The notes below the pieces were generated by a model, which had not been told where the DNA came from, made no database searches, and was given only the letters and a program-made list of their open reading frames with translations. From Natroniella sulfidigena (GTDB lineage Bacteria > Bacillota > Halanaerobiia > Halobacteroidales > Halobacteroidaceae), in contig NZ_JALKBY010000018.1 in the NCBI RefSeq assembly GCF_023223645.1, positions 1 through 47,837 of the forward strand: a stretch of 47,837 nucleotides of DNA. The letters run 5' to 3'. Positions 35,576 to 47,748 of this stretch are shown piece after piece; positions within the stretch are counted from its first letter, which is position 1, and each line of letters starts with the position of its first letter. The translations under genes and the position numbers were made by a program.

Positions 35576-36952
35576 TTAAGATGTCTTGCTTTTGAATTTT
35601 TCTACAGAATTAATCTTAATATCAAGTAATTTAGCAATATTAAACTTAGCTTCCATCCCTTTAGCATTACCAGCACCAGGCTGAACTCGCCCAATATTTA
35701 ACTCTTCTCTTACTTCATCCATAATTACAGGATCGGTAAGCTCTTTTACATCTACTCCTAATTTACCAGCAACATATTCCTTAGCTTCATCTAAACGCAT
35801 ATTTCGGGTCATTTGCATGCGTGCTACCAGATCTCCGGCAGTACGTACTCCGCCCATGCCCGAAGCTAATGCGTGACTGATGACCATTCCGTTAGGGTCA
35901 CCTACGCCTACCTACAACCCATCTTGTTTACCAATTTCAGCTAGTGCAGCAGAAGCCCTACTCAAAGAGTCAACTGGAGGGGTTTCAACAATAGGTACAC
36001 CCCCTACACCCATCCCTACATTAGCGTGTACTGGAATATCAGATGCTTCAGCACAAGCCTTCATCATGGTTACGGTTCTACCTATATTCCAAGGGATGGT
36101 TTCACTACTATTAATGTTAACTACCGGGCCAAAGACATCAACCCCAGCTTTTTCAGCCATCTTCACCTGCTGATGAGGATAAAGACCTGCTAAATTAGTT
36201 CCATCATACTCAAGATCACCATGCATTCCTAAAACAAACTCCCCAGACATTCCCATTTCAATACTGATATCTGGATACTTTTCCTTCAACTTTTCAGTTG
36301 CCTTTAATGTAGCTAAAAAGTCAGGCTCACCTGCCGAGCCAGTCGTATCAAAGTTAATCCCATCTGCTCCTGCTTCATACATCTTACTTCCTACATAAAC
36401 CATATCCTTAATTGCATGCTCCATCATACCTTCATAAGCTTCTCGCGCTTCTTTAATTTTTCCCTTTGGCAACAACTCTGCTGGATTTGGAAATGCTCCA
36501 TCTGGCTGACTATATAATGACAGATTGGGCATTGCCCCATAATATATTGGTAAGACAGTACTCAATAAGGCCTGTTCCATCTCTATTTGTTCTTCAGCAA
36601 CAATCGGCTTTACTGGCTTAAAACTATAATCAACATGGGCCAACTCTGCAGTATCAGAACAAAAAACCCTTTCATAAATTTGTAAATCAGGAATTCTACC
36701 AATTGAAACAGCCAATCGTTTTAACTTTACAGAACCTTCATCAAAGGTTAAAACTAACTCATTACCAGTCTCAACACTGACAAATTTACTAGGTCTTGTA
36801 TATATATCTGTCAACTTCTCAATTTCATCTTCAGAAAGAGGATCGACTTTGGCACGATCAACAGCATCCTCAATTCCTCTTTCTATATCAGCCTTAATCT
36901 CTTCTTCAGTCATCTCTATCGTTGAACCATCTCCAAGCCTTGTTTGAACCAT
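35576..36952 (-). CDS. mtbB: Dimethylamine methyltransferase MtbB, with in-frame UAG (pyrrolysine)
   Basis: 458 residues if the UAG at 35914-35912 is read as pyrrolysine (position 347). Without it the reading frame would split into 346 and about 103 residues. The sequence on both sides is continuous and of MtbB type: [29 protein letters not shown], matching the known MtbB position (about 356 of 467). The upstream part is a TIM barrel with [16 protein letters not shown] and [15 protein letters not shown]. It demethylates dimethylamine, transferring the methyl to MtbC. The pyrrolysine machinery lies just upstream on the same strand, and mtbC follows. Ribosome site AAAGGAGTG; stop TAA. Confidence 0.93.
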
Positions 36953-37079: not shown

Positions 37080-39050
37080 TTAAATCACATCACCAACTAC
37101 TTTACAAATTACTTTGGCTGCTACTAAACTACCAAGTCCTTCTCGTTGTACTTGACAACTAAATTCCATTCTTTTTGCTCCAGAAATCTCTGCTTGCTCA
37201 AGTACTTTTTTCTTTCCTAACTCTTGAGCAGCTGTAAGTGCCTCATTTAAACCACTAAACTTCTCTCGTCCCTGACTATAATAAAGAATATAACTTCCTT
37301 CTACCTTCTTAATCAACAGTTCTTCATTTACAATGACTTTAGCAACTGCAGCTCCAACTGCATTAGCTACTTCATAATCCTGGGGCACTATAATTTCAGC
37401 TGTTAAATACTGAGATAAGTGCTGCAAGTATGCTTGGGCTGGAGCACCAATAGTTACTATTGGTATCTCTAATTGAAAATCCCAATTAAATCTTTCAAAT
37501 TTATCAAAAGAATGCTCTATCACCTCTCCCAAATTATCGTACTGAGACACTTTAGAATTTTGTCTAACTAATTGTAATCCAACTTCTCGGGCTACCTTCT
37601 TGACTACTTTATTTTTGAGCTCAATAGCAAATCTTTCTGCTTCTAAATTAGCTTCCCCTACTGCTAACCTATAACGCAGTTTATTTTTAAGTTCTAAAAA
37701 CAGTAATTCATACCCTAACTGAGCTGCTTCTTGGCTCCAGTGAGTATACTCTCCTAAGACATGTAAAATATCAGTCGGGGTCAAACCAATTCTCTTAATT
37801 ACTTCTAGTCTCTCTAAGCGCTCAACCCCCAAAAATTGCAGATTAATTAATTCTAATTCTTTCTTTAGTTGAGCTAACGATTTAGGGCCAGACTCTAATA
37901 ATTCAATAACTTCTCTTTCCCGCTGATTTAAGTCCAAATACTCTGCATCTCTATTTAATATTAAAAATTGACCCTGCTTAAACTCTAACTTCTTTTCTAC
38001 TATATCTTCTAATTCAGTTATGATACAGCCATAATTTGTAGCAGCTACTGCATAAGGAATCAGCCTTTGAGGCCCTAACTTTATTTCACATTCTCGATTT
38101 AAGCTAATTTCACTGTCTCCACCTAAACCAATTGTTCTAAATTTAATCGACTCAACACATGTCTGCCAGTCTTCCACTTCAGCACCATCAGTAGCTAATT
38201 GAGGAGAACCATCATCTATTAAAGCAATATCTGTAGTAGTCCCTCCCATATCAACAACTACTAAGTCATCAATTCTACTCAAATGCTTAGCACCAATGAT
38301 ACTAGCAGCTGGCCCAGATAAAATAGTCTCAATCGGCTTAGTCAAAATTACCTCATCTTTAACTACTGAACCATCCCCTTTAACTATCATTAACGGTGCA
38401 TCAATCCCCTTAGCAGTTAAAACCTGCTTTACTTTCTGACACAACTCTTTAATTAAGGGAATTAAACTAGCATTTAAGACTACTGTAGTTGCTCGTTTAA
38501 TTAAATTAAGTTTACTACTTAAACGATGTCCACAAACTAACGGTAAGTCAACCAATCCACTTAAAATCTCTTCCGCTCTTAATTCATGAGCAGGATTTCT
38601 AACACTCATATAACCTGCAATAGCTATAGCATCAACTTTATCCTGCCAATCAATTCCTGCTTGTTTAATCTTTTCTTCAGCAAGTGGCTCTGTCTCAATC
38701 CCTTTAATATCAAACTTACCCTCTATTACCCTAATCTCTTTAGTTGGAATTTGCTGATCAAACTTAAACTTCTCTAAATATTCTTGCTCATAACCTAACA
38801 ATAACAGACCCACCCTAGCTCCTTGACCCTCAACAAGTGCATTAGTAGCTAAAGTAGTGGACAAAGCTACCAGTTCTATTTCTGACAATAACTCTTGCTT
38901 TAAACTTGTAATTACTTCAGTAATACCTTCTAACAAATCATAGTGGGTCGTAATCGCTTTATTTTTATCAATTAACTGCTCAGTCTGATAATCATAAATC
39001 ACAGCATCTGTATAGGTCCCACCTGTATCAATTCCTAATACTTTTTTCAT
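37080..39050 (-). CDS. HyuA-like ASKHA ATPase (hydantoinase/oxoprolinase family)
   Basis: 656 residues. N-terminal GIDTGGTYTDAVIYD is the phosphate-1 loop of the actin-like ATPase fold; VVDMGGTTTDIALIDDG is the second. LSGPAASIIGAKHL lies between. About residues 365-435 form an inserted stretch with NQREREVIELLESGPKSLAQL, resembling a winged helix. There is no partner HyuB gene. Family members hydrolyse hydantoins or 5-oxoproline, but the place between pylD and mtbB, where methylamine clusters need an ATP-driven corrinoid reductant, suggests a different job. That is an inference. Ribosome site GAGGACTGATAAT. Confidence 0.75.
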   Translation of the reverse strand: MKKVLGIDTGGTYTDAVIYDYQTEQLIDKNKAITTHYDLLEGITEVITSLKQELLSEIELVALSTTLATNALVEGQGARVGLLLLGYEQEYLEKFKFDQQIPTKEIRVIEGKFDIKGIETEPLAEEKIKQAGIDWQDKVDAIAIAGYMSVRNPAHELRAEEILSGLVDLPLVCGHRLSSKLNLIKRATTVVLNASLIPLIKELCQKVKQVLTAKGIDAPLMIVKGDGSVVKDEVILTKPIETILSGPAASIIGAKHLSRIDDLVVVDMGGTTTDIALIDDGSPQLATDGAEVEDWQTCVESIKFRTIGLGGDSEISLNRECEIKLGPQRLIPYAVAATNYGCIITELEDIVEKKLEFKQGQFLILNRDAEYLDLNQREREVIELLESGPKSLAQLKKELELINLQFLGVERLERLEVIKRIGLTPTDILHVLGEYTHWSQEAAQLGYELLFLELKNKLRYRLAVGEANLEAERFAIELKNKVVKKVAREVGLQLVRQNSKVSQYDNLGEVIEHSFDKFERFNWDFQLEIPIVTIGAPAQAYLQHLSQYLTAEIIVPQDYEVANAVGAAVAKVIVNEELLIKKVEGSYILYYSQGREKFSGLNEALTAAQELGKKKVLEQAEISGAKRMEFSCQVQREGLGSLVAAKVICKVVGDVI

Positions 39051-39117: not shown

Positions 39118-39930
39118 TTATAAAACCTCAAGCCCCATTACTGCTACCCCCAGCTGCAAAGGGTCATGAATTAACCCCTGCTCTATTTTAGTAACAGCTC
39201 TAGCTGATAAGCCCAATGGAATACCAGGTGCTGCAATAACCGTCTTCTGATCTACATCATCTGCTCTAATGATCTCAGCTGCTGGAGTAGCTTCAATTAT
39301 CAAATCATACTTTTGCAAACCATAAGTTAAATCTTTAATTAACTCTATTGAAGGGCCAAACTCTTTTTTTATTCTCTCCATCTTTTCAACATTTAGATCG
39401 CAGACCCCAATGCTAGAAACCCCTTGTTCATTTAAAGCTTTCACACTCTCTACTCCAACTGATCCCAGACCTAAGACTAAGACTGATTTAGCAGTTAAAC
39501 CACCACTAGTCTTATTTAAAGCAGCAACATATCCTTTAGCAGTTGCTCGGTCATTGTTGGCCCACTTTCTGTTAGCTAAATTCCAAGCTAAAAAAGTATC
39601 ATCATCAGCCATCAAGGCAATATCAGCTCCTAGCTGATAAGCCTGATCAAGACCACCAAGATCAGGCTGGTCAGTAATTAAAGCCTCAAATCCTATAAAC
39701 TCTAAAATTGCCATTACTGCCTCACTAAAGCCTTCAATCAACCCCTCTCCCGCAGTTACTGGAATCACAGCAGCCTTCTTAGCAGCCAAATCCTGCTGTT
39801 GATAACTTGCTTCAACTGCATAATTCGCCAGTTCAAATAAACTACATCCTGTTATCTGTTGTAATTGCTGATCGTAATCTTTCATTGTAGTTGGTATATC
39901 CTTTATCTGAGCAGTTACTAATCGAGTCAC
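39118..39930 (-). CDS. pylD: Pyrrolysine biosynthesis protein PylD
   Basis: 270 residues; NAD-dependent dehydrogenase that oxidises L-lysyl-(3R)-methyl-D-ornithine and lets it cyclise to pyrrolysine. N-terminal helical domain, then a Rossmann domain with VLVLGLGSVGVESVKAL near residue 155. Catalytic segments EALITDQPDLGGLDQAYQLGADIALMAD fit PylD. Translation starts at GTG with GGGGAGGCG six bases upstream. Follows pylC after 30 bases. Confidence 0.93.
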   Translation of the reverse strand: MTRLVTAQIKDIPTTMKDYDQQLQQITGCSLFELANYAVEASYQQQDLAAKKAAVIPVTAGEGLIEGFSEAVMAILEFIGFEALITDQPDLGGLDQAYQLGADIALMADDDTFLAWNLANRKWANNDRATAKGYVAALNKTSGGLTAKSVLVLGLGSVGVESVKALNEQGVSSIGVCDLNVEKMERIKKEFGPSIELIKDLTYGLQKYDLIIEATPAAEIIRADDVDQKTVIAAPGIPLGLSARAVTKIEQGLIHDPLQLGVAVMGLEVL

Positions 39931-39960: not shown

Positions 39961-41109
39961 TTAATCAAAGATCGTTGGATCTGAAAACTCTTCTAACTGA
40001 TGTTGGTTGAAAATTTCAGTTAAAGTCTGATTTCTCTTTCTAAATACTTCATTAAGAGAATCGGCTACAAAGATCAACGTAGCAATCCACTCTCCACCCT
40101 CAGGGTCATAATTAGTTAACACCTTAGTAGCACCAAAAAAGTCATCTTTGATTATTAAGTTATCAGCCTCAGCCATAATATGTTCACCACAGACAGTCAA
40201 TCTGTTATCTTGAACCTCAATATGTTCATAAATCACAGCTCGTTCAGAATTAGTAAGATTAACTTCCTCATATTGACCTACAGTTAATTCCACTAACATC
40301 TCTACCATATTTAAACCTGTTCCATAAAAGACAGTAATCGGCGTCTGACTAGGAAAACGAGCATCAATTTCTAATACTTTTATCCCTTCCTTACTAACAA
40401 TCACCTCTAAATCCATAATCCCTTCTAAAGAAAGTCTTTGAGCAATTTTAGTACATATGTTAGCCAGTTCATCTTCAAGCCATTCTTCTATCTGTCCTGA
40501 ATAAATAACCCTCTTACAATCAAAGATTTGATCAAAATCAAGATAAGTAACTGCTAAAGGAAAAACTTGTCCCCTAATAGCTATCACTTCTATCGAATAG
40601 GAAGGGCCAACTAAATACTCCTCAATAATCGGTTCTTCTAAGGTAGATAAAACCTCAGTTAACTGCTGTTGATTATCTACTTGATAAACCCCTTCACTAC
40701 CACTAGCTTGCGAAGGTTTAATAATTACTGGAAAATCTGCTTCAGGCCACGACTTACTTTGAGGAATATTATTCTCTATAAAAAATTGCTTAGATCGCTC
40801 CTTAGAACTTGAAATCTGATAAGCTTGCCAATCAAATAAAACAGGTAGATCAATTTTAGAGCAAATTCTTCTTAAAGTTGCTAACGCAGCATCGTTCTCC
40901 GTAGCTGGAAAAATTAAATCAACATCTTTAACCCCTTCTAAAAACTGACCTTCCTCTTCCACTAGATTACAGATCAAATATTCTGTAACCAAATTCAATG
41001 CTGGAGCAGATTTATCTTTATCAACTAGTAGGACTTCATACCCAGCCTGCTGAGCTAAATAAACAATTTCAATTCCTTGTAAACCTCCACCAACTATAGC
41101 AATCTTCAC
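39961..41109 (-). CDS. pylC: Pyrrolysine biosynthesis protein PylC
   Basis: 382 residues; ATP-grasp ligase joining L-lysine to (3R)-3-methyl-D-ornithine. N-terminal Rossmann-like VKIAIVGGGLQGIEIVYLAQQ, then the ATP-grasp core with DFPVIIKPSQASGSEGVYQV and EIDARFPSQTPITVFYGTGLNM. The start is a GTG at 41109 with AAAGGAGG seven bases before; an ATG and TTG farther upstream overlap pylB and lack a ribosome site. The 3' end abuts pylD by 30 bases. PylB, C and D together make pyrrolysine. Confidence 0.92.
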   Translation of the reverse strand: MKIAIVGGGLQGIEIVYLAQQAGYEVLLVDKDKSAPALNLVTEYLICNLVEEEGQFLEGVKDVDLIFPATENDAALATLRRICSKIDLPVLFDWQAYQISSSKERSKQFFIENNIPQSKSWPEADFPVIIKPSQASGSEGVYQVDNQQQLTEVLSTLEEPIIEEYLVGPSYSIEVIAIRGQVFPLAVTYLDFDQIFDCKRVIYSGQIEEWLEDELANICTKIAQRLSLEGIMDLEVIVSKEGIKVLEIDARFPSQTPITVFYGTGLNMVEMLVELTVGQYEEVNLTNSERAVIYEHIEVQDNRLTVCGEHIMAEADNLIIKDDFFGATKVLTNYDPEGGEWIATLIFVADSLNEVFRKRNQTLTEIFNQHQLEEFSDPTIFD

Positions 41110-41138
41110 AGACTGACCTCCTTTCCCAACCAAATTCA

Positions 41139-42233
41139 TTAACAACTCGAACTTCTAATATATCTTTCAGTGGTCTGCTCTTTAGCTATCCACTGTTGAT
41201 AGTCATCCTTACTAGCAACCTCTAACTCTAAGTCCTCAATAATCTGCTTAACTCCTGTTACTGTACGATATCCTTCTTCTATATCCAAAGTTGAATTAGA
41301 GACACCAGCTAATCCAGCTTGAGGGGGAATAATTGAAGTAATTACATTTGCCCCAGCCATTAATCTATCCTTTAATCCTTTAATTCCATCTACATCCAAG
41401 GAAGCTGGGATTAATCTGTCCTGTAACACTAATCTTAAAACAGCAATTACTAATAATTCATTGATTCGAGAAGGAGTCTGATGATCCTCCATTGGTGTAC
41501 CTTCTTGCGAAACAAAGCTCATTACTCGTCCTTGATGAACACCTAACTCTTTCATCGTTAAGATTGAGTTAACTCGATCTGCAATCCCTTCTCCAACTCC
41601 CAGTAAGATTCCATCTTCAATCAACATCCCTTCTTGTTGAGCAAACTTCTTAATCTCTAATCTTTGTTGATAATCCTGCCCAACCCTTAACTGCTTAAAT
41701 AGTTCAGGACTATGTGTTTCTTGATAACAGGCATATAGATCTGCACCTGCTTCAGTCAATCTTAATACTTCATCACGAGGCAACAAGCCAGGTGAGATCA
41801 TTACCGGTAATCCTGTTGCAACTTTAATCTCTCGAACAAGCTGAGATAAATCTTCAAATTTATCTTTCTGGTAAAAGATAGGATCTTCGCCCATCGTCAA
41901 ATCAATCAGATGAACTCCCGACTCAGCTAGTAATTTAGAGATTTCAACTGTTTCTGCTATACTTTTACGATAACGAGGACTCTGTTGATTCGAATTACGA
42001 TAATAACAAAAACTACATTCATTTTGGCAATAAGTTGAAAAGTAAACAAATCCATACAGGAATAATTTATTACCAAAATAACTGCTTCTGATCTTTCTAG
42101 CTGTTGCAAATACCTGCTCAATCAGATTTTGATCTTTAAGATTCAAAATCTGATAAATCTCATCCTGCTTTAACTCAACTCGATTTAGAGCTTTATTTAA
42201 AATTCTTTTGATCTCTAAATTATTTGTAGTCAT
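41139..42233 (-). CDS. pylB: Pyrrolysine biosynthesis radical SAM enzyme PylB
   Basis: 364 residues; lysine-2,3-type mutase making (3R)-3-methyl-D-ornithine from L-lysine. The radical-SAM cluster Cys are Cys69, Cys73 and Cys76 in YCQNECSFCYYRNSN. GEDPIFYQKDKF and SQEGTPMEDHQTP are typical of the PylB/BioB-like group. The ATG at 42233 with AAGGTG seven bases before is preferred over the GTG two codons upstream. 18 bases separate it from pylSc. Confidence 0.94.
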   Translation of the reverse strand: MTTNNLEIKRILNKALNRVELKQDEIYQILNLKDQNLIEQVFATARKIRSSYFGNKLFLYGFVYFSTYCQNECSFCYYRNSNQQSPRYRKSIAETVEISKLLAESGVHLIDLTMGEDPIFYQKDKFEDLSQLVREIKVATGLPVMISPGLLPRDEVLRLTEAGADLYACYQETHSPELFKQLRVGQDYQQRLEIKKFAQQEGMLIEDGILLGVGEGIADRVNSILTMKELGVHQGRVMSFVSQEGTPMEDHQTPSRINELLVIAVLRLVLQDRLIPASLDVDGIKGLKDRLMAGANVITSIIPPQAGLAGVSNSTLDIEEGYRTVTGVKQIIEDLELEVASKDDYQQWIAKEQTTERYIRSSSC

Positions 42234-42251
42234 TTTCACACACCTTCATCA

Positions 42252-43094
42252 CTAAATATTTAATCGTGCTCCATCTTGATAAATTAAACTCCTTCCAATC
42301 CGTTTAATATTATTAAATTCTTCCTTACACATAACCAACCGCTCAACTCCAAAACCAACCCCTACCCAAGGATCACTAATATTCCACGCTCGATCTAACG
42401 TATGAGGGCCAATTGCAGCTGAACCAACTTCAACTCCATCGACCAGTACATCTATCGTCTTGTTATAAACAGTTGATTCTTCTTCTTCTAACTCATAATC
42501 CAACTCCAACAATGACATTATCTGCTCAATTAAAGACTCTAATCTAGCAGTCAAATCTTCAGTTGTTGGCCCTAATTCTACCAGATTAAGCATTGTAAAT
42601 TCAGATAGATGCTTACTCCCCTTTGACTCTTTTCTAAAGCAAGGGCCAATTTCAAAAATTCTAATAGGTTTATCTAAAGAATTAGCAAAATAACCTAATA
42701 GATAATATAAATTAGGGGCCAACATCGGTCGCAGACAGTACTTCCCTTCATCAATCCAATAAACCTGCTTCCATAATGGATCTTCTTGCTCAATCCCCAT
42801 CTTCTTTAAATGACCTTGAGCTAATTTAATTGGTGTCGTAACTTCTGTAAAATCAAGTTGGTTTAATAATTCAACCAATGAAGTTTCAGTCCTTCTCAAA
42901 CTAGAACGACCTCTTTGTTTAACAAAGTCCATTAGACGTTCCTGATTAATTGCAATCAGCTTCTGCTCTACTTTCTGAAAAAATTCTTCTCGCTTTTCTA
43001 CAGAAGTAAATTCTCGCTCTTTAGCTTCAGGTACATATTCACCTGTTAAATCCAATTCAATTATTCTTTGTTGTTGAGTTTGAGTAAATTTCAT
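42252..43094 (-). CDS. pylSc: Pyrrolysyl-tRNA synthetase catalytic domain (PylSc)
   Basis: 280 residues: the class II aminoacyl-tRNA synthetase core as a separate protein, charging tRNA-Pyl. Motif 2 CLRPMLAPNLYYLLGY, IFEIGPCFRKES and SEFTMLNLVELGP with Asn170, the counterpart of the amide-binding Asn346. Tyr210 (STVYNKTID) matches the Tyr of the pyrrolysine cap loop. Motif 3 GFGVERLVMC is present. The N-terminal tRNA-binding part is encoded separately by pylSn 19 bases upstream, the bacterial arrangement. The ribosome site is GGAGG. Confidence 0.95.
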   Translation of the reverse strand: MKFTQTQQQRIIELDLTGEYVPEAKEREFTSVEKREEFFQKVEQKLIAINQERLMDFVKQRGRSSLRRTETSLVELLNQLDFTEVTTPIKLAQGHLKKMGIEQEDPLWKQVYWIDEGKYCLRPMLAPNLYYLLGYFANSLDKPIRIFEIGPCFRKESKGSKHLSEFTMLNLVELGPTTEDLTARLESLIEQIMSLLELDYELEEEESTVYNKTIDVLVDGVEVGSAAIGPHTLDRAWNISDPWVGVGFGVERLVMCKEEFNNIKRIGRSLIYQDGARLNI

Positions 43095-43113: not shown

Positions 43114-43437
43114 TTATTTGAAATTCGTATTAGCATACTTATCTAATTTCCAATCAGGAACAGCACACTGCTGACACGCTTCAACCATCCATTTATTTCT
43201 TAACCACCGTGCTGCTCGACTATTCTTAGAATTTTTAACGCTCAACCGATGACCACAATGTAATAAAATATCAGCATAATTACCATTAATATTAATTGAT
43301 TTAATTCCATGTAATAGTCCAGTACGTGAAGGCCACAATTTAATCTTCTTTAATAGAACAAATAGATCAGATTTCTTATAAAATACATATTTCACCTGAT
43401 TAGAATTTGGCTGTTGAAATTTTTTATTTGGACTCAT
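43114..43437 (-). CDS. pylSn: Pyrrolysyl-tRNA synthetase N-terminal domain (PylSn)
   Basis: 107 residues; small basic protein binding the tRNA-Pyl variable loop and T arm. LWPSRTGLLHGIKSININ and CGHRLSVKNSKNSRAARWLR match the PylSn core, with Cys in WMVEACQQCAVPDW completing its zinc site. ATG at 43437 with AAAGGGG nine bases before; the GTG 12 bases earlier overlaps the ribosome site. First gene of the pyl run, upstream of pylSc. Confidence 0.93.
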   Translation of the reverse strand: MSPNKKFQQPNSNQVKYVFYKKSDLFVLLKKIKLWPSRTGLLHGIKSININGNYADILLHCGHRLSVKNSKNSRAARWLRNKWMVEACQQCAVPDWKLDKYANTNFK

Positions 43438-43500
43438 ATTTGTAAGCACCCCTTTATCTCAACCCTCCATAAAGATCTATTATCTTATTTAAATTAATCT

Positions 43501-43755
43501 CTAATTTACAAACTCTCTAGCTAAATCAGTAGCAGCACTTCCATCTGCAGCATAACCATCTGCACCAATCTCATCAGCAAAATCTTGACTGACTGGAGCT
43601 CCACCAATCATTACTTTTACTTGTTCTCTAATCCCTGCTTCTTCTAAAGACTTAACTGTATCTTCCATAACAGGCATAGTTGTAGTTAATGCGGATAGTG
43701 ACATCTTGAGTTTCTTATTGTCATTTGATTTCTCCCCTTTCTTTTTATTTATCAA
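43501..43755 (-). pseudogene. Corrinoid protein remnant (MtmC/MttC/MtbC type)
   Basis: The last 66 residues match the end of a B12-binding methyl carrier: SLSALTTTMPVMEDTVKSL and KVMIGGAPVSQDFADEIGADGY. The N-terminal cap and the DxHxxG cobalt ligand are missing; instead a lysine-rich stretch (MINKKKGEKSNDNKKLKM) precedes it. It lies between pylT and pylSn, so a methylamine-operon gene seems to have been deleted here. It cannot bind cobalamin as is. It could not be assigned to one of the three methylamine carriers. Confidence 0.75.
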
Positions 43756-43931: not shown

Positions 43932-44003
43932 TGGAGGAGGATCCGGGTGTTACACCCGGCTGCATGGGGTTAGAGCCCACGCGGTCCTTCCGACCAATCC
44001 TCC
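43932..44003 (-). tRNA. pylT: tRNA-Pyl (CTA anticodon), pylT
   Basis: 72 bases folding exactly as tRNA-Pyl: acceptor GGAGGAT/ATCCTCC, a single base before the D stem, D stem GGTC/GACC with a 5-base loop, 6-base anticodon stem CGTGGG/CCCATG, loop CTCTAAC with anticodon CTA, a 3-base variable loop CAG, and T arm CCGGG/CCCGG. Encoded CCA. Base 73 is T, whereas known tRNA-Pyl have G73, an identity element for PylRS. Same strand as the pyl genes. Confidence 0.93.
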
Positions 44004-45967: not shown

Positions 45968-46219
45968 CAAAAAACCTATCTTGCCATCCGTATAGGACGA
46001 AACAAGATAGGTTTAAGTTCCGTGGTACCACCCTAATTGATCAATAATTATTGATCCACTAGTTTAAGTAACGATTTGATTACCGGTATAACTTACTAAT
46101 AATTTCAGTTATACAGCTCCAGAGCGAAATTTCAATCAAAGTTTCTTAGAGATGCTCCCAGCCGATGACATCTCCTCTCTACAAGAAAAACCTTTAATCT
46201 ACTTAACCCCTTCTTCGCT
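45968..46219 (-). promoter_or_regulatory. T-box leader of aroF
   Basis: Contains the T-box AGGGTGGTACCACGGA at 46034-46019 and a terminator whose arms AAACCTATCTTG and CAAGATAGGTTT lie at 45971-46014. Stem I has AGCGAA/TTCGCT at its base, an AGTAG motif, and AGAGATG/CATCTCT apical parts. The acceptor-binding UGGU predicts a tRNA with A73, so Tyr or Phe rather than Trp. A likely specifier is UUC in GAAATTTCGC, tentative. Uncharged tRNA would allow readthrough into aroF. Confidence 0.92.
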
Positions 46220-46373
46220 TTTAAATTATTTATTTGTTCGCTCAATCATTATCATTTATGTTGCTATTTATTTTAACAGTTAAATTTTAGTTTGTCAAGA
46301 CTGATTTTCTATTTATAATATACATTATTCAGCTAAATCGTGTCTAATTTATGATGATTTTTTGAATCATACC

Positions 46374-46609
46374 TCACCCACTAGTGACTAATCCAAAATG
46401 TTCTGCTCCACTCTCTTCCATCTTCTTAGCTCGCTCTAACACCTCATCTTCTTCTAATAAAGGATAAGTAGTTGCTGTAGTATCATAATGAACAGATTGT
46501 GAGCAGAAGATACAATCCTCTGAACAGTTACCTGATTTAGCATTGACTATTGAACATAAGTCTACCTTCTGACCAATAAATTGATTCTTAATTCGATTAG
46601 CTGCTGCTA
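46374..46609 (-). pseudogene. bioB: bioB fragment (biotin synthase), cut by an insertion element
   Basis: About 78 codons from the N-terminal third of biotin synthase: AANRIKNQFIGQKVDLCSIV and the radical-SAM Cys in NAKSGNCSEDCIFCSQSVHY, then HFGLVTSG and a stop. The 5' side runs straight into the IS right end at 46610. The 3' side is also truncated: nothing after LVTSG resembles the remaining 230 residues. Cannot be functional. Confidence 0.85.
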
Positions 46610-46748
46610 TTGACGCTCTGCGGGGCAAGCCCACGCAGATTCCTTATTCGTAGAGAATTGCCCACTTAAAGCATACCCAATGGTAGATTAAGCAGGTCTT
46701 ATGCTCTCTCCAAAGGCGTAAATTCCTGTCCGCCCGACAGTATATAGA
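46610..46748 (-). ncRNA. IS605/IS1341-type right end and likely omega-RNA
   Basis: Region after the tnpB stop with a 3' end hairpin GCGTGGGCTTGCCCCGC and final TCAA at 46613-46610, the usual right-end signature of these elements. Upstream stem GGGCGGACAGGAATTTACGCC-like text fits the guide RNA of TnpB nucleases, whose scaffold overlaps the end of tnpB and whose guide is the flanking DNA, here bioB. Confidence 0.7.
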
Positions 46749-46980
46749 CTATCTTATACCTAATTCTAATTTGCCTTGCTTTAAAAGGTTTAAACTAGCA
46801 TTTTCATCCCGATCGTGGATTGCACCACACTCACAACTCCAAGTACGAACTGATAGGTCTTTAACTTCTGGATTTTTAGTACCACACTCATTACAAATTT
46901 GACTACTACCAAAAAACCTATCTACTTTATGTATGATACAATCGTACCATTTCCCTTTATACTCAAGCATTGTAATAGAG
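46749..46980 (-). pseudogene. TnpB C-terminal part (IS605/IS1341 family)
   Basis: About 73 residues or a few more: MLEYKGKWYDCIIHKVDRFF, then the zinc finger SSQICNECGTKNPEV ... CECGAIHDRDENASLNLL. In TnpB the segment VDRFFGSSQICNECG leads into the RuvC-III Asp in DRDENA, which is present. The upstream part of the gene lies beyond a group II intron inserted just before MLEYK; in frame S-I-T-M-L-E-Y runs up to the intron boundary. Confidence 0.88.
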
Positions 46981-47072
46981 ATAGGTAAGCCTTCAATAGT
47001 AATATTACCTATTTCCAGCCTTTCCCCCTCTTCACACCTAACGTGAGATTTTCAAACTCACTAGGCGTTCCA
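46981..47072 (-). ncRNA. Group II intron 3' end: domains V and VI
   Basis: Domain V: ACGCCTA/TAGGTGT lower stem, two-base bulge (GT), GTGAG/CTCAC upper stem with a GAAA-containing loop, and CGC as the catalytic triad. Domain VI follows with ATAGGTAA/TTACCTAT arms. The 3' splice site is near 46981, immediately before the tnpB exon. Confidence 0.82.
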
Positions 47073-47079
47073 TCATAGT

Positions 47080-47748
47080 CTAAGTTAGTTCGATACAATC
47101 ATTTCCTGCCTTAGCTCGAAGTTTGTTGAGTTTACTCAGGGCATCTTCATCAAGAATCCCTTTCACCTTATCATAGTAGAGTTTAATTGTTTCTTCTTTA
47201 GTAGCGTGGATTAACTTGTGTATATCTTTCTTAACTAGACACAAGTTTCTATAAGTGTCCTTACCACCTAATTTTCGTGGTTTCTTGTGATGACACTCTA
47301 TATCTCCAATAAACAAAGGAAATCTAGTAATAAAACAACAACCATTTTGACCAGAGTATCTGGCAATTCGGTTATCATTGTATTTAGTAGTTTCACCTCT
47401 TACTGGATTCTCTACTAAGTATTTTTGTACTACTGGTGATACACTTTTAAGTTTCTTGTGTATCTTTTCCCTTCCTTCTTTGGTGTAATCACATATTCTC
47501 TGTGAAAAGTGCATAGGAATATTAAAGGTTACACCTGTAATTGGAAATATTCTGATTCCTGCTACATAATAAGGTTTATAGTTATACTTTCCATAAAACT
47601 TTTTGAAAGCTCTTGATTCAATACCTTTTTCACTTAAATCCGAGCTAAGTCGGTTCTCGATATTTTTATTAACTAAGAAGGCTATATCTCTAAAATCATG
47701 TGAAACCATTGTAGCCATAGAATAATAGTTCTGCATTCCAAGTATCAT
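47080..47748 (-). CDS. Group II intron-encoded protein, maturase X and HNH domains (partial)
   Basis: 222 residues corresponding to the end of a group II intron reverse transcriptase/maturase. MILGMQNYYSMATMVSHDF belongs to the maturase (X) domain; the C-terminal IECHHKKPRKLGGKDTYRNLCLV is an HNH nuclease core used in target-site cleavage. Upstream in frame there is a TGA at 47772-47770, eight codons before the first Met, while another frame is open up to the window edge, so the protein may be frameshifted. Stop TAG, next to domain V. Confidence 0.85.
   Translation of the reverse strand: MILGMQNYYSMATMVSHDFRDIAFLVNKNIENRLSSDLSEKGIESRAFKKFYGKYNYKPYYVAGIRIFPITGVTFNIPMHFSQRICDYTKEGREKIHKKLKSVSPVVQKYLVENPVRGETTKYNDNRIARYSGQNGCCFITRFPLFIGDIECHHKKPRKLGGKDTYRNLCLVKKDIHKLIHATKEETIKLYYDKVKGILDEDALSKLNKLRAKAGNDCIELT

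Follow-up and report, generated by a model that had tools for sequence, protein, structure and literature searches.

The tRNA-Pyl of Natroniella sulfidigena, encoded in a 47,837-nucleotide stretch of its genome (the window), carries U at the discriminator position, base 73. Judged by comparison with other genomes, this U73 is a recurring, already reported variant and no peculiarity of the genome in which it was found. The gene probably specifies a functional amber-decoding tRNA-Pyl of U73 type that is charged by its own split synthetase and serves mtbB, a dimethylamine methyltransferase gene. According to this reading, the PylSn/PylSc pair of the window would accept and charge the U73 tRNA-Pyl, and the charged tRNA would then decode the UAG codon within mtbB.

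The pylT gene and its neighbourhood

The features that bear on this reading are listed below in coordinates of the window, with the evidence for each.

43932..44003 (-), pylT, tRNA-Pyl(CUA); ARAGORN, fold, covariance model R1
43501..43755 (-), C-terminal remnant of mttC, a corrinoid protein gene, between pylT and pylSn; an 84-aa frame that matches only the end of corrinoid profiles
43114..43449 (-), pylSn, tRNA-binding small subunit of the split PylRS, 111 aa; TIGR03912, E 9.7e-37
42252..43094 (-), pylSc, catalytic subunit of the split PylRS, 280 aa; TIGR02367, E 1.1e-85; alignments, trees
41139..42239 (-), pylB, methylornithine synthase; TIGR03910, E 9e-143
39961..41145 (-), pylC; TIGR03909, E 1e-118
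39118..39930 (-), pylD; TIGR03911, E 2.5e-77
35576..36952 (-), mtbB, dimethylamine methyltransferase, 458 aa on readthrough; TIGR02368, E 1.8e-113
35815..35914 (-), PYLIS_2 element in mtbB, starting at the UAG; Rfam RF02509, 75.5 bits
34848..35510 (-), corrinoid protein gene adjoining mtbB, mtbC-like by position and sequence; intact 220-aa frame

On the minus strand, ARAGORN calls a tRNA-Pyl at 43932-44003 whose anticodon is CTA. The ends of the gene read GGAGGAT...ATCCTCC-T-CCA, so that base 73 is U (template A at 43935 of the plus strand), and the CCA is itself encoded (43932-43934). Because a T precedes G1, there is no eighth acceptor pair to shift the register, and the G1-C72 pair is present. 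The predicted fold has an energy of -40 kcal/mol compared with -25.2 kcal/mol for shuffled sequences (z -4.6), and the gene scores 82 bits with covariance model R1, which was trained on bacterial pylT with the window gene among them. The original prediction, that a perfectly folded tRNA-Pyl carries T at its discriminator, is confirmed by these results. A covariance-model search of the 2.6 Mb genome returned the window gene as its sole match, with no second pylT and hence no G73 copy.

Several traits place this RNA among known tRNA-Pyl. It has the short D loop (3-5 nt), the anticodon stem of at least six pairs and the very short variable loop that serve as criteria for tRNA-Pyl (PMC9499178), and profile matches show PylRS, PylB, PylC and PylD in the same genome. 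Like the tRNA-Pyl of Desulfitobacterium hafniense (structure 2ZNI) and Methanosarcina barkeri, it combines CUA and G1-C72 with a short D loop and a long anticodon stem, and its PylRS is split as in D. hafniense. Unlike these G73 tRNAs it has U73, A3-U70 and U8, which fits the set of the U73 branch described below; its discriminator departs from the canonical G73 identity set. The closest sequence is the pylT of Natroniella acetigena, with three differences in addition to base 73, and lateral acquisition of the gene is unsupported for that reason. Between the two species, pairing in the anticodon stem is preserved by a two-sided change. N. acetigena has a second, broken pylT (L080, 9696-9764) about 570 bp from its intact copy; several T-arm bases are missing, CTA replaces CCA, and the copy sits in a tandem duplication that takes in upstream sequence.

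Downstream of pylT and on the same strand, pylSn, pylSc, pylB, pylC and pylD are intact, and all exceed the curated cut-offs. One in-frame UAG interrupts mtbB at codon 347 (35912-35914), and the frame is open when TAG is read as Pyl; this is the only UAG-containing Pyl gene found in the window genome. The pylSc frame closes with TAG followed immediately by TGA (42249-42254), two stops in tandem, which restrict readthrough in a cell that decodes UAG. A 656-aa hydantoinase/caprolactamase-like protein is encoded between pylD and mtbB (37080-39050), and no such protein was seen beside pylD of N. acetigena. Elsewhere in the window, a T-box leader (45990-46224) lies upstream of a DAHP synthase-like gene, and positions 46374-46634 hold a bioB fragment of 86 codons. 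Its neighbours, in 46644-47748, are a transposase-like zinc-finger fragment, a match to a group II intron (46975-47070) and a protein of the HNH type; a complete set of biotin genes occupies this place in N. acetigena.

Distribution and history of base 73

In the systems studied, G73 is the main identity base for PylRS (PMC9071458, PMC9976931), as the original prediction held, and it has been called universal in tRNA-Pyl (PMC7609411, PMC9499178). A passage of a 2023 review (PMC9976931, citing Guo et al. 2022) records U73 in some bacterial tRNA-Pyl. The 24 other pylT genes collected first, all beside PylSc homologues and obtained from a contig scan with patterns taken from a single protein, had G73 throughout. 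This uniformity was a sampling effect, because the scan patterns derived from that one protein. A covariance model built from the same 24 genes was then run on whole genomes, where U73 was found to recur, and the view of U73 as a unique anomaly was rejected.

PylSc was found in six of the 59 genomes of the class to which the window belongs. Four of the six have U73 (the window, G057, G059 and G060), and the other two, N. acetigena and G002, have G73. The G002 genome (2,469,596 bp) is similar to Acetohalobium, and we take it to be Acetohalobium arabaticum. Both G73 species share the A3-U70, U8 scaffold of the window pylT; unlike the window they have G73, Arg at PylSc position 158 and an mttB gene with UAG. 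Across a sample of the phylum, pylT was present in 24 of 398 genomes, about a third of which (8/24) have U73. Altogether, ten further Bacillota genomes share the base with the window (G057, G059, G060, G082, G166, G193, G199, G252, G257 and G323), all on the same U8 scaffold and most with A3-U70. U73 also appears on another tRNA scaffold in G532, a Desulfobacterota-type genome, and A3-U70 and U8 occur together in 10 of the 12 distinct U73 genes. The rarity that the original prediction had implied for U73 does not survive this survey; it had itself named U73 in many related pylT genes as evidence to the contrary, and many related genes have it.

Within the order to which G014, a Desulfobacterales record, belongs, pylT was found in 32 of 291 genomes, and the genes read there include one with U73 (G532) and three with A73. 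The latter lie on L090 and L190 (G014 and G560) and on L199 (G554), the G554 gene being without an encoded CCA; A73 was known to PMC9071458 from two archaea only. One apparent C73 gene (L066) was discarded as not being a tRNA-Pyl. Several bacteria have two to four pylT genes per genome, namely G334 (L131, L148, L151 and L152), G060, G166, G252, G739 and G024; one G252 copy (L150) looks degenerate, and G334 gives two PylSc hits. On the minus strand of L090 (G014) there is, besides the full gene, an apparent separate copy of the 5' half of pylT, which might be the scar of an insertion or rearrangement.

Two PylSc trees were built, a careful one from 60 sequences and a quick one from 84. In the careful tree all 11 Bacillota U73 systems, window included, group on a single branch (support 98/93). 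The same branch also holds split-type archaeal enzymes with G73 and the bacterial G73 systems of N. acetigena and G002, whose PylSc proteins are the nearest relatives of that of the window (77% and 68%, respectively). Base 73 changed at least three to four times on the careful tree and six times on the quick tree. Whether the window lineage retained U73 or regained it, two changes are required. The proposal that G73 gave way to U73 in the window lineage was withdrawn, since family f8 has U73 and both polarities come at equal cost. The window and most of family f8 are separated from N. acetigena and G002 by the same split at one anticodon-stem pair and at PylSc residue 158.

The motif 2 loop and PylSc residue 158

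Motif 2 was examined first because of a precedent in HMET1, where the motif 2 loop lies near base 73 and its length decides between the use of G73 and A73 (PMC9071458). The HMET1 PylRS2/tRNA-Pyl2 pair resembles the window in its non-G discriminator and in having motif 2 as the suspected reader; it differs in that the base is A73 and the loop is one residue shorter. In the window PylSc the loop reads RKESKGSKHLSEF, with Lys at position 158 (K158), and is of the usual length, so a shortened loop of the HMET1 PylRS2 kind was rejected. The A73 genomes G014, G560 and G554 likewise have a motif 2 loop of normal length, with Gln or Gly at the position of K158. The exchange of K158 for Arg is the sole motif 2 loop difference between the window and N. 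acetigena. G002 also has Arg, and in D. hafniense the residue aligned with it is Gln (Q164).

Position 158 is usually Gln. Lys or Ser occupies it in all 12 U73 systems compared with 10 of 66 G73 systems; in G532, where U73 is independent, it is Ser. As Lys or Ser is also found alongside G73 (e.g. in Hydrothermarchaeum, Thermoleophilia and G251), the residue can only be permissive. When all alignment columns were scanned by independent pairs, column 158 ranked first, favoured by 3.4 of 4 pairs and opposed by none, although four pairs are too few for significance in a sign test. Further, among 25 neutral traits simulated on the tree, some column scored as high in seven, so that the rank of column 158 alone is not unusual and amounts to a lead, not proof. 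It is the location of the residue in motif 2 that makes it worth testing. Tentatively, then, position 158 (Lys/Ser, with Arg in both G73 neighbours) may set the tolerance of U73, although we hold this to be less likely than not. The proposal that the split PylSn/PylSc reads its tRNA in a different way thus gains some comparative support from this residue; the suggestion that such reading is special to this genome does not stand.

Competing explanations and their consequences

The main rival to a synthetase that accepts U73 in its own right is that PylSc enzymes of this branch read base 73 only weakly, with U73 and G73 interchanging freely and no residue tracking the base. Neutral tolerance of this kind would agree with the different base 73 in near relatives with almost identical tRNA, with the single-residue difference in the motif 2 loop between the window and N. 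acetigena, with a minimum of four to six changes of base 73 on the PylSc tree, and with a column association no better than that of many simulations. However, the branch as a whole keeps U73, with few cases of C or A, and a passage of PMC9071458 quotes a roughly 100-fold loss of catalytic efficiency for G73A in D. hafniense and a loss of about 70% of suppression in M. barkeri. We regard free interchange as possible but doubtful. It is unlikely that the U73 branch forms a distinct identity class, in which PylSc would read U73 via motif 2 (Lys/Ser 158) and reject G73, and the two Natroniella species (U73/Lys and G73/Arg) would differ by an identity switch and might be orthogonal to each other.

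U73 could also be a harmful change in a species that is losing its Pyl system. N. acetigena (G001) has a UAG-containing mttB and an intact 210-aa mttC between pylT and pylSn. In the window, mttB and most of mttC are missing from this interval, where the mttC remnant suggests a deletion, and the sole MttB-family gene of the genome is without UAG. By this comparison mttB appears to have been lost in the window lineage and mtbB kept, which would mean that the Pyl system may be shrinking. The broken second pylT of N. acetigena would also suit decay, as would the faster divergence of the Pyl genes between the two species (dN 0.10-0.31) than of aroF (0.04). Against this, the Pyl genes are all open and their dN/dS of about 0.15-0.35 relative to N. 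acetigena (pylSn, dN 0.10 and dS 0.67; pylSc, dN 0.16 and dS 1.04) is well below 1, indicating purifying selection. Further, the tRNA folds perfectly, both the UAG-containing mtbB and the corrinoid gene beside it are intact, and U73 is common to many genomes with intact PylSc, all of which makes decay improbable. A sequencing or assembly error at 43935 would involve a single base, but the remaining gene is intact and U73 is found again in the more distant G532 and in ten other members of the Bacillota, so an error there is very improbable indeed.

A functional U73 tRNA-Pyl, charged by its own PylSn/PylSc and serving mtbB, is therefore the reading that we favour. To what was already reported, the present analysis adds the survey, the contrast of U73 and G73 within Natroniella, the bacterial cases of A73 and one testable candidate residue. 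Although G73 is often described as universal, a whole bacterial branch has U73, and the base turns up a second time in a genome of Desulfobacterota type. In close U73/G73 pairs, nature supplies a clean test of the way PylRS recognises base 73, one that would be useful for building orthogonal tRNA/synthetase pairs. If the U73 branch were a distinct identity class, the two Natroniella species would constitute a near-isogenic natural pair; if the variation is neutral, the identity rule for base 73 would be looser than taught.
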